Below, piece after piece: positions 61,361 to 64,000 of a DNA stretch of 64,000 bases. Made by a program: the position numbers and the translations under genes. The stretch is from Arthrobacter sp. ISL-85. GTDB taxonomy: Bacteria; Actinomycetota; Actinomycetes; Actinomycetales; Micrococcaceae. The stretch is taken from the NCBI RefSeq assembly GCF_018613675.1, contig NZ_JAGGPQ010000007.1, positions 62,001 through 126,000 on the forward strand, given 5' to 3'. The notes beneath the pieces are model-generated. The model was not told where the DNA came from. It saw only the letters and a list, made by a program, of their open reading frames with translations, and made no database searches. Positions within the stretch are counted from its first letter, which is position 1. Each line of letters starts with the position of its first letter.

Positions 61361-61936
61361 ATGAAGGCACTGCCAGTTGAGCCGAGCAATGTCCCTGTTG
61401 CCATCGGGTCCAGGATCCGGGCCGCCCGGCAGTCCCAGCGGCTCACCATCGAGCAGGTGGCGGACGCCACCGGGCTGACCAAAGGGTTCCTGAGCCGGGT
61501 GGAGCGGGATCTGACCTCGCCGTCGGTCGCGTCCCTGGTGACACTCTGCCAGGTGCTCTCCATCTCCATCGGCGACCTTTTCGTGGCGCCGGAAACCCAC
61601 CTGACGAAAAGGAACGACGGTCCGCGGATTTCACTCGGCGGCGAGGGCATCGTGGAGCGGCTTTTGACAGCCCGCTCGGAACGCCGGGTCCAGATCATCC
61701 AGGCAGTGATCGAGCCGCACGGCCGGGGTGAATCCGAGCTCTATGCGGTGGACTGCGACGTGGACGTCCTGCACGTGGTCAAGGGGTCCATCAAACTGAT
61801 CCTCACCAACGAGGAATACCACCTCGATACGGGCGACACGGTGACTTTCCCGGGCCGGGAACCCCACACCTGGGTCAATCCCACGGACAAGCCGGTTGAG
61901 GTGCTCTGGGTTCTGGTGCCCGCCGCGAGCCGCTGA
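61361..61936 (+). CDS. XRE-family regulator with cupin domain
   Basis: 191 residues: HTH at about 12-66 (IGSRIRAARQSQRLTIEQVADATGLTKGFLSRVERD) and a cupin_2 domain at about 115-188 (HVVKGSIKLILTNEEYHLDTGDTVTFPGREPHTWVNP). The architecture matches PuuR-like regulators of putrescine and amino-acid catabolism. It is divergent from the symporter and lies upstream of the agmatinase, its probable targets. Confidence 0.87.
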   Translation: MKALPVEPSNVPVAIGSRIRAARQSQRLTIEQVADATGLTKGFLSRVERDLTSPSVASLVTLCQVLSISIGDLFVAPETHLTKRNDGPRISLGGEGIVERLLTARSERRVQIIQAVIEPHGRGESELYAVDCDVDVLHVVKGSIKLILTNEEYHLDTGDTVTFPGREPHTWVNPTDKPVEVLWVLVPAASR

Positions 61937-61947
61937 CCCCTCTCTGC

Positions 61948-62056
61948 TGCGCATCCCTGCCCAGTTACCTCTGGTGGTCCTTATGGGAGCCGCCGGTTTG
62001 CGCGGGATGCACGTCCGCGGAGCGCTCTGGTATGGGTGTAACTGGGCTGGAGTGCA
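61948..62056. repeat. Hairpin element A (related to element B)
   Basis: Left arm 61948-61968 (TGCGCATCCC + TGCCCAGTTAC) and right arm 62038-62056, whose complement reads TGCACTCC + AGCCCAGTTAC. The element ends 3 bases before the DUF559 stop codon. Its arms match those of element B on the other side of the gene. Confidence 0.75.
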
Positions 62057-62059
62057 CGC

Positions 62060-62893
62060 TTACCGGCCCAGGTTCCGCCGGTCGCCCGCCAGTACGGTCC
62101 TGATCTCCCTTACGACCGAACTGGGGTCAAACCAGATGTGCTCCGGCATGTAGCGAAGGACGGCGTATCCGCCGGTTGCCGCGGCGTTGTTGCGCTCCCG
62201 GTCGCGGAGCATGTCGGCGCGCTTGGAGTGGAATGCAAAACCGTCAATCTCCACGATCAAAAAGCCACTCAGCAGGAAGTCCACGCGGCCGATTCCCGGC
62301 AGGAAGACTTGGGTGTCGTAGGCGATTCCGTTGGCGCGGAACAGGTGCTGCGCATCAACCTCCACGATGGATTCTGCACGCACGTCAAGTTCCCGCAGGA
62401 CGCGGAGTGCGGAGCCGGAGCGGTCTGCCTGAAGCTGGGAGGCCAGCAGTTCGCGTGGCACACCGTGAAGCCTGATCGCCGAGGTTGCCAAAGCGGTGGA
62501 TGCCGGCGGTGGCAGGCAGCCCAGGGCATGAAGTGCCACGTCTTCCACGGCGGCCACGGGCAGGGACGGATGACCGGGGAACCTCACGGTGCGGTGCCGG
62601 ATAAAGCCGCTGCCGTGGCCGTGGCCGCAGGCCAGGTGCGGCTGCGGGGGAGGTTTGCGAAGCCAGAGCCCGTAGTGGCCGGCGGCGCTGGCGCAGGTCA
62701 GTCGGCCGTTGCTCAGGACTGCGGCGAGGAGCCCCTTGTCGCATTCCGGCAGGACGAAGATGCCGCGTCGGGGTTGGCTGGTCCCCAGCCCGGTGAGCCG
62801 TAAGAGTTCCCGTCGCGGGAACCCTGCGTCCAGGAGTTGGGCGGAGCGGGCCACGCCGCCGCACTTGTGCAGGTAATCGAGGATGTCCACCAC
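62060..62893 (-). CDS. AbiEi-like/DUF559 endonuclease-domain protein
   Basis: 277 residues. The N-terminal part (about 1-80; DILDYLHKCGGVARSAQLLDAG, then RGIFVLPECD) resembles the winged-helix AbiEi-type antitoxin domain. The C-terminal part is DUF559, a Vsr-like PD-(D/E)xK nuclease fold: RVDFLLSGFLIVEIDGFAFH with Asp and E-x-D, then RDRERNN and VLRYMPEHIW. Both domains together form a common actinobacterial family of unknown role. The start is uncertain: GTG 62893 (or 62890) gives the family length but has no clear ribosome-binding site. The gene lies between two related hairpin elements. Confidence 0.72.
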   Translation of the reverse strand: MVDILDYLHKCGGVARSAQLLDAGFPRRELLRLTGLGTSQPRRGIFVLPECDKGLLAAVLSNGRLTCASAAGHYGLWLRKPPPQPHLACGHGHGSGFIRHRTVRFPGHPSLPVAAVEDVALHALGCLPPPASTALATSAIRLHGVPRELLASQLQADRSGSALRVLRELDVRAESIVEVDAQHLFRANGIAYDTQVFLPGIGRVDFLLSGFLIVEIDGFAFHSKRADMLRDRERNNAAATGGYAVLRYMPEHIWFDPSSVVREIRTVLAGDRRNLGR

Positions 62894-62967
62894 GTCATTG
62901 GAGGCCGCGTAGGGCAACGTCTGGAACAGGATGCCGGCCCTATGTGCATAACCCGGCGGCCGCTCTT

Positions 62968-63085
62968 GTGCGTTCCTGCCCAGTTGCTCCAAGGCGCTCA
63001 CCGAGGGCTGAGGCGAAATGCTGGAACCCCCGCGAGGTAGTCGGCACACCTCCGGGCCGGGGCGAGTAAGTGGGCGGGAACGCAC
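62968..63085. repeat. Hairpin element B (related to element A)
   Basis: Left arm 62968-62989 (GTGCGTTCC + TGCCCAGTTGCTC) and right arm 63064-63085, whose complement is GTGCGTTCC + CGCCCACTTACTC: 19 of 22 positions pair. It lies 75 bases upstream of the DUF559 start and before the agmatinase promoter. Confidence 0.78.
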
Positions 63086-63182: not shown

Positions 63183-64000
63183 TTGGAAGAGCTGCGCATT
63201 GAAGCCAACGGCAACCTTGGCCCCATCGATTCATCCCGGATTCCCCGCTACGCCGGAGCCGCCACGTATGCACGCCTTCCGCGGCTGGACCAAGTCGATA
63301 AAGCTGATGTCACAGTGGTGGGCGTACCTTTCGATTCGGGTGTTTCCTACCGCCCGGGTGCCCGCTTCGGCGCCAACCACGTCCGCGAGGCCAGCCGGCT
63401 GCTGCGCCCCTACAACCCCGCTTGGGATGTCAGCCCGTTCGAGAACATCCAGGTGGCCGACGCCGGAGACATGGCGGTCAACCCGTTCAACATCAACGAT
63501 GCCATCGAGACCATCCAGCAGAACGCGCTGGACCTCACGGCTGCCGGGAGCAAGTTGCTGACGCTCGGCGGCGACCACACCATCGCCCTGCCGCTGCTTC
63601 GCGCCGCCGCCGAGCGCGCGGGCGGGCCCATCGCCATGCTGCACTTCGATGCCCACCTGGACACCTGGGATACCTACTTCGGTGCCGAATACACCCACGG
63701 CACGCCCTTCCGCCGCGCAGTGGAGGAGGGCATCCTGGACACCGACGCCATCAGCCACATCGGCACCCGCGGCCCCTTGTATGGCAAGAAGGACCTCGAC
63801 GACGACCACCGCTTTGGGTTCGGCATCGTCACCTCCGCGGACGTCTACTACCAGGGCGTCCTGGAAACCGTGGCCAAGGTCCGCGACCGCATCGGCAACC
63901 GTCCGCTGTACATCTCGGTGGACATCGACGTCCTGGATCCGGCCCACGCGCCCGGCACGGGAACCCCCGAAGCCGGCGGCATCACCAGCCGCGAACTCCT
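63183..64000 (+). CDS. speB: Agmatinase/ureohydrolase (incomplete at the window edge)
   Basis: The first 272 residues are in the window. Ureohydrolase manganese motifs are present: [22 protein letters not shown] and [20 protein letters not shown]. Agmatinase makes putrescine and urea from agmatine; guanidinobutyrase and related enzymes share this pattern, so the substrate is not certain. The TTG start at 63183 has AAGGAGAGG ten bases upstream. Context (XRE-cupin regulator, symporter) suggests use of agmatine or a guanidino acid as nitrogen source. Confidence 0.88.

Follow-up and report, generated by a model that had tools for sequence, protein, structure and literature searches.

Why does a nuclease-type gene of Arthrobacter sp. 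ISL-85 lie between two elements with inverted, related arms, and do gene and elements belong together? The window, the 64,000-nucleotide stretch of DNA that was analysed (contig NZ_JAGGPQ010000007.1, positions 62,001 to 126,000), carries near its end an AbiEi-like/DUF559 endonuclease gene. Element A lies 4 bp from the stop codon of this gene, and element B lies 5' of its start (Table 1). The preliminary description of this DNA had placed B in the gap before a divergently read gene, and had noted that both elements have inverted arms of one pattern and bracket the DUF559 gene alone. All of this is borne out: the arms are 83% complementary in A and 86% in B, the left arms of the two are 84% alike, the right arm of A is 78% complementary to the left arm of B, the DUF559 gene and no other lies between the elements, and B occupies the gap between the DUF559 start and the agmatinase-family gene. 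The TCC-to-GGA length is 97 for A and 106 for B, in the length bins 96-99 and 106-110.

The arm pattern was run against the whole genome (38 contigs, about 90% complete) with two mismatches allowed, and recovered three of the four A and B arms and one isolated match elsewhere. A looser 14-base pattern, at the same tolerance, gave 20 matches in the window against 9.2 expected and a maximum of 17 in shuffles.

Table 1. Features at the DUF559 locus, in window coordinates
Feature	Position	Strand	Remarks
HTH-cupin regulator, conserved neighbour	61361..61936	+	context, outside the system
Element A	61951..62055	.	class I arms 61951-61968 / 62038-62055, inverted
Central core of A, CCGCCGGTTTGCGCGG	61990..62005	.	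43 and 54 bp from the arms
AbiEi-like/DUF559 endonuclease gene	62060..62890	-	ORF, ~276 aa; GTG start at ~62890 inferred from orthologues, frame open further upstream
Element B	62968..63085	.	class I arms 62968-62989 / 63064-63085, inverted
Weak core of B, TGCTGGAACCCCCGCG	63019..63034	.	53/53 bp from the arms
Agmatinase/arginase-family gene, conserved neighbour	63183..64000	+	PF00491, E 5e-78; context; extends past the window end

Arm classes at DUF559 loci

Close orthologues of the gene were found at 26 loci among the 119 relatives searched, with identities of 54-85% and one gene broken. The HTH-cupin gene adjoins the DUF559 gene at all 26; within the fetched flanks a symporter is present at 25 and the agmatinase, on the other side of the DUF559 gene, at 20 of the 26. 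Conservation of the arms in orthologous loci, on which the earlier proposal turned, is complete: counterparts of both A and B occur at 26/26, so that with the window itself class I elements flank the gene on both sides at 27/27 class I loci (two mismatches per arm allowed), and a control scan shifted outward by 620 bp found them at 0/85. Taken together, this makes the DUF559 block a conserved locus, not a recent insertion.

Class I arms were found at none of the 58 paralogous DUF559 loci. These loci carry one other class on both sides in 33 cases and on one side in 14, and 11 are unassigned; over all classes, elements of one class stand on both sides at 60 of 85 DUF559 loci, compared with 0/85 in the shifted control. 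The first three paralogues examined are bracketed by another arm pair, ATTCTGCTGGATCA, one side of which, at locus L035, fell below the first threshold and was detected by later scans. About eleven arm classes can be distinguished in the genus, and arm class follows the protein tree: 14 label changes are required among 83 proteins, the minimum being 10, whereas shuffled labels required a mean of 52.8 and were as low as observed in 0/200. The classes were named by eye from the flanks before the tree was built, with unassigned loci treated as one group and the broken L034 and short L114 genes excluded.

The window genome itself holds two further DUF559 genes, a class V relative with an internal stop and no element found (L113, G000:C8:113867-114616) and, at the edge of a contig, a class IV relative that has one element (L114, G000:C36:134-736). 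At L026 (genome G314, 959-1427 and 2364-2583) class I elements stand in tandem, with three on one side at a spacing of about 178 bp and some two on the other. Several class III and V genes share, on their 5' side, a short hairpin of another kind, about GGGATAGCCCCGGTTCCC and 52 bp in total (examples are L113, 1614-1665, and L118, 2654-2705); it is perhaps a terminator of the neighbouring gene.

The bracketing was also sought blind, as a 12-base word followed by its reverse complement 35-130 bp on, 5' of the gene, with the same pair 3' of it. In the genus this four-arm test scored 6 or below at 61/84 DUF559 loci and 4 or below at 40/84, compared with 1/84 and 0/84 in the outer flanks of the same loci; at other window positions a score of 6 or below was obtained at 2/86. 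A named set (Arthrobacter, Pseudarthrobacter, Paenarthrobacter and Sinomonas), which overlaps the genus set, gave 49/79 and 31/79, with controls of 2/79 and 0/79. Swapped flanks inside the genus still scored 6 or below in 26/200 (genus set) and 34/200 (named set), high values that arise because same-class pairs remained in the swaps.

Outside the genus 47 loci were scored, one of them from the same family and 46 from families elsewhere in the order, class or phylum. Here 24/47 reached a score of 6 or below and 14/47 a score of 4 or below, compared with 3/45 and 0/45 in outer flanks and 27/200 and 1/200 in swapped flanks; the strict cut-off was thus missed by 33 of the 47. With equal element lengths required on both sides, the test was passed at 14/47 loci, compared with 0/45 in controls and 2/200 swapped pairs. 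Some elements of distant families are short, nearly perfect hairpins and could be terminators. Loci dropped for short flanks numbered 4/51 outside the genus, 1/85 in the genus set and 1/80 in the named set.

Anatomy of the element and architecture of the protein

The element has more structure than its arms. In 85 class I elements with dissimilar interiors (6-mer sharing of at most 0.25, a rule we set ourselves), the TCC-to-GGA lengths fall at 85-87 (8 elements), 96-99 (46), 106-110 (28) and 119-121 (3), with none between; class II elements measure 85-88 bp (42 interiors). When class II elements are centred, a palindromic core, CCCCGGAATTCCGGGG, emerges, and a core matrix trained on class II scores at least 6 in 58/85 class I interiors, compared with 19.5% of shuffled ones. 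In the window, the top match of this matrix scores 8.1 in element A and a low 2.4 in element B. The distances from arm to core in class I step by 10-11 bp: 114/116 are 32-33, 43-45, 52-55, 64-66 or 76 bp, the two distances within one element not being independent. The core lies at the exact centre of most class V elements (score of at least 6 in 15/18) and of members of classes III, VIII and IX. Classes IV (2/10 at that score), VI (2/13), VII (4/11) and XI (1/4), like most distant families, show no clear core. A strong terminator-like stem stands at the centre of some solo class I elements, for example G408:C1:4422381-4422488 and G410:C60:5707-5815.

The interiors are not self-complementary (0.31, compared with 0.32 between elements), which fits DNA half-sites. 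The elements look like double-stranded DNA sites, in which class-specific arms are placed around a shared palindrome in phase with the helix, at about 44, 54 and 65 bp. Asymmetric arms on one helix face around a shared core suit a DNA-looping complex, not an RNA stem.

What kind of protein might use such a site? Pfam matches in the window protein are DUF559 (PF04480, E 6e-7) and MTES_1575 alone, and NCBIfam gave no match for it. Its AlphaFold2 model (pLDDT 91) has two parts. Residues 6-177 match the AbiEi structure 6y8q (Foldseek E 2.7e-5), although the structural match to 6y8q_D is middling, with a Z score of 7.5, below the trust mark of 8, and 4.3 Å over 166 residues. Residues 179-280 match Vsr-type nucleases: 3hrl (Z 12.8), I-Bth0305I (3r3p, Z 12.7) and Vsr (1cw0, Z 10.9). 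In PADLOC the AbiEi (E 4e-4) and homing-endonuclease profiles match weakly, an AbiEi sequence profile reaches E 0.8 only, and an EDxHD homing-endonuclease sequence profile gives E 0.005. Among 22 diverse members no variation is seen at E185, D212, E222, H229 and D238, and we read these five residues as the EDxHD letters; class II proteins have N for D in the E-x-D-G motif (EVNG). As modelled, the window protein would combine a DNA binder of AbiEi type with a nuclease of Vsr/I-Bth0305I type. Its relatives are widespread in Actinomycetota: profile matches extend to 48/59 genomes sampled from the order and 26/60 from the phylum, the genus of the window included.

AbiEi is described as binding two 23-bp inverted repeats and bending DNA (PMC7319586), and I-Bth0305I as dimerising on a target of nearly 60 bp (PMC3943268). 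By analogy, the length of the arms, their inverted arrangement and the two-fold core would fit binding by an AbiEi/I-Bth0305I-like protein. Arm-core distances of at least 43 bp are long for one monomer, and bending or multimers are needed. Within class I, arm divergence tracks the C-terminal part (partial r 0.38, the broken L034 gene excluded) as well as the N-terminal winged helix (0.22); since the C-terminal part tracks the arms at least as well, arm reading by the N-terminal domain is not singled out.

We think it probable that the DUF559 protein and the elements that bracket it form one cognate system, in which the arms are bound, the core is cut and repair spreads the element. The proposal builds on what was computed, namely bracketing, class-specific arms, a core shared by several classes, phasing, co-occurrence and the modelled domain architecture; arm binding, core cutting and spreading through repair are what we infer from these. 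The N-terminal AbiEi-type part would bind the arms of about 22 bp, whose sequence is specific to each DUF559 subfamily, and two bound inverted arms, each a whole number of DNA turns from the CCCCGGAATTCCGGGG palindrome, would meet by bending or looping. The C-terminal Vsr/EDxHD-type nuclease domains would then converge at the core, where they would nick or cut the DNA. When such breaks are repaired from another copy of the element, the copies would be homogenised, spread and kept, and the gene would be held between two of them, just as RAYT genes maintain the REPINs that flank them. Element B, just 5' of the gene, may in addition provide AbiEi-like autoregulation.

Dispersed copies, fixed loci and competing explanations

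Copies of the elements are dispersed beyond the DUF559 loci. Class I elements number 1-18 per genome in 111/206 genomes of the genus (a strict pattern, and so a lower bound), with 0 for the reversed control pattern among the genomes listed; class II elements are present in 34/206. Many of the solo elements derive from a scan restricted to 80-122 bp. With phylogeny ignored and the bracketing copies themselves counted, class I elements occur in 66/68 genomes with the gene and 45/138 without it (Fisher p 6e-21), and class II elements in 22/24 with and 12/182 without (p 6e-19). Three or more class I copies are found in 42/68 genomes with the gene and 10/138 without, again ignoring phylogeny. Counted among the class I carriers are G329, G414 and G433, which have high-identity fragments, and among the 24 class II carriers G440, G450 and G312, whose gene is nearer to the class IX locus L165. 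In G411, one of the 12 class II-positive genomes without the gene, two elements enclose a partial class II gene. Where the class II gene sits at its locus, the 11 genomes hold 6, 8, 4, 6, 3, 1, 6, 0, 6, 6 and 4 elements; in the seven genomes where that locus is empty, six hold none and one holds one. A separate site in G422 (C1:2132009-2132533, L369) has three class II elements that follow one another in tandem about every 220 bp and share their flanks.

The preliminary description had proposed that the hairpins go with the nuclease gene, and had set against this the case that they are common repeats unconnected with DUF559 genes. The second is not what was found, since solo copies track the gene and paralogue classes have arms of their own. 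The cognate link between gene and element is well supported, and is stronger than first proposed.

The main alternative sees in the protein a regulator or nucleoid protein that has been domesticated, and in the elements its operators, which two monomers bound to the arms would loop. Autoregulation would then fall to the bracketing pair, the solo copies would be a regulon or chromosome-organising sites, and nuclease activity would be incidental or otherwise used. AbiEi antitoxins autoregulate via inverted repeats, according to the account in PMC7319586, and element B lies directly 5' of the gene; the helical phasing, too, suits looping. At one locus, moreover, where a solo element is kept in seven genomes, the arms and core are nearly invariant: the left arm does not vary, the right arm varies at one C/T position and the core TCCGGG is constant, with more variation in the left interior. 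The elements are also mostly intergenic. In a set of 124, which includes 16 from nine DUF559-bearing loci and was sorted with a crude gene finder, the gap is tandem for 50, convergent for 29 and divergent for 18, while 18 more run into a called gene and 9 are at an edge. A promoter position is, however, not the rule by this count, autoregulation requires no element past the stop codon, where a counterpart of A stands at 27/27 class I loci, and the nuclease residues D212, E222, H229 and D238 are invariant in the 22 members compared. We hold this alternative to be unlikely.

A cognate cutting system might also be a selfish homing element: by cutting the solo elements of other cells, the nuclease would have the whole element-gene-element block copied into them during repair. 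The catalytic domain does match that of the homing endonuclease I-Bth0305I. The interiors of A and B are near-identical direct copies at three class II loci (L123, L124 and L166), implying recent duplication or homogenisation; among the 58 loci compared they are weakly alike in some others and unrelated in most. Solo-element empty sites exist as well, and they count in favour of the cognate system too. Across 29 genomes with an empty class I site at the HTH-cupin locus (chosen by us; 30 were given and 29 matched), one whole solo element is present in two, L309 and L334, and both elements with a 29-residue gene remnant in one, L311. Up to its right arm, the L309 element matches the A side of L025 at 89% identity; from the right arm onward it matches the B side at 97.7%, a state that may reflect deletion between like arms, cutting and rejoining, or an ancestral solo site. 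The L334 case is less clear, as that element can be aligned end to end with the B side in some relatives and with the A side in another.

Against homing stands, above all, the fixity of the loci. The class I gene occupies one syntenic locus in the 26 orthologues examined, and the class II gene one neighbour region in 13/13 gene-bearing genomes examined, identified by the left-hand neighbour in 11 and by the right-hand neighbour in two (G137 and G420). The class II home (L407-L422, L427 and L428) adjoins a gene that we take to resemble murA, and each DUF559 subfamily perhaps has its own fixed genomic home. Because both classes examined sit at fixed loci, present-day movement is unsupported. Empty sites, moreover, mostly lack an element. 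At the class I locus 22/29 have nothing and four have a single arm-like match, which at the one mismatch allowed may be chance, so that the comparison with empty sites suggested earlier yields solo elements and a remnant at a few sites and no trace at most; at the empty class II locus, no class II element was found in 7/7 gene-less Paenarthrobacter-type genomes. A homing gene usually interrupts its own site, whereas here the sites are intact beside the gene. Eleven class II copies have related interiors, and in some a shared flank as well, and in these no clean boundary or target-site duplication was seen. The reading of A, gene and B as a moving unit accordingly finds no support. Nor was any match to the query protein found in phage, and seven plasmid records gave weak matches, none covering 80% of it; relatives on plasmids are annotated solely as AbiEi-family antitoxin, endonuclease-domain, DUF559 or hypothetical protein. 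Taken with these observations, homing is improbable.

A role as bidirectional terminators, or as RNA hairpins of another sort, is very improbable. The elements do fold well as RNA: on the plus strand A has a z score of -2.7 (1/200 shuffles as good) and B of -3.9 (0/200), and on the minus strand A has -3.2 (0/200) and B, the weakest case, -2.1 (7/200). Many copies lie in convergent or tandem gaps, and variable arm positions agree between the two sides beyond permutations (class I, 303 compared with 273, p 0.002; class II, 126 compared with 96), although as a sign of compensatory change this evidence is mixed and may come from drift of the consensus between lineages. Element B, however, lies in a divergent gap, the interiors do not pair with themselves, and the 10-11 bp phasing, with a phased core, has no evident role in an RNA stem. 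A simple scan found no terminator-like site, and Rfam gave no match up to E 1. Least probable of all is that the DUF559 gene is a passenger and that an ordinary transposase encoded elsewhere owns the elements as its REPIN- or MITE-type repeats: arrangement and dispersal do resemble those of REPIN/RAYT (PMC8049555), but Y1_Tnp (PF01797) has matches in just 2/206 genus genomes, one of them below the curated cut-off, and none in the genome of the window, and arm class follows DUF559 subfamily, which is unexpected of a passenger.

Relation to known systems and implications

The nearest known system in behaviour is REPIN/RAYT. RAYTs are described as single, vertically inherited genes flanked by palindromic repeats of which further copies are scattered through the genome, REPINs as two inverted arms around a diverse spacer, and genomes with a RAYT as carrying more repeat copies (PMC8049555, PMC3733652). 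The DUF559 genes resemble them in being single genes passed on vertically, in their flanking palindromic repeats, in the dispersal of the copies and in their greater number where the gene is present. The REP/RAYT-type arrangement seen in the preliminary description is thus real as a likeness, but the window protein has no Y1 domain and RAYT/REPIN proper is rejected. The modelled enzyme here is an AbiEi-type part joined to a Vsr/DUF559 nuclease, whereas a RAYT is a Y1 HUH transposase; the arms here are half-sites of about 22 bp around a central core, helically phased; and copies are fewer, 1-18 by the strict pattern that gives a lower bound, compared with 69-235 REPINs given for E. coli (PMC8049555).

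Other systems share single features. TIRtrons and their TIRYTs also have long inverted repeats that flank the gene and differ between paralogues of one genome, as outlined in PMC3733652, but TIRYTs are tyrosine transposases. The type IV antitoxin AbiEi and Rv2827c have an N-terminal winged helix with a second domain, to which the modelled N-terminal part here may correspond. The protein described here differs from AbiEi in its predicted fusion to a nuclease domain and in having sites on both sides of the gene and dispersed besides; at the window locus, where its neighbours are the HTH-cupin and arginase-family genes, no AbiEii toxin gene lies beside it. With I-Bth0305I and Vsr it shares the fold of the catalytic domain, but its gene lies outside introns, its flanking sites are intact and its DNA-binding part is another one. 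In the open-licence literature we found no DUF559 gene linked to repeats and no report of this dispersed repeat family. To our knowledge, neither this enzyme nor a phased arm-core-arm element belongs to any known gene-plus-repeat system.

How far might the cognate cutting system extend? The chances seem to us evenly balanced that there is an Actinomycetota-wide class of nucleases with cognate repeats, in which each subfamily owns phased elements that are kept and spread through core cutting and repair, as an independent invention resembling REPIN/RAYT. What the association suggests is a system for keeping repeats or organising DNA, with an unexpected enzyme at its base, and it offers a possible owner for a family of dispersed repeats. 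For DUF559-type genes, the flanks of each gene now supply a predicted DNA target, which makes their biochemistry testable. If the proposal is true, long-site nucleases could be found by reading flanks, and the RAYTs would be joined by a second enzyme family that has made its home in bacterial genomes alongside a population of palindromic repeats.
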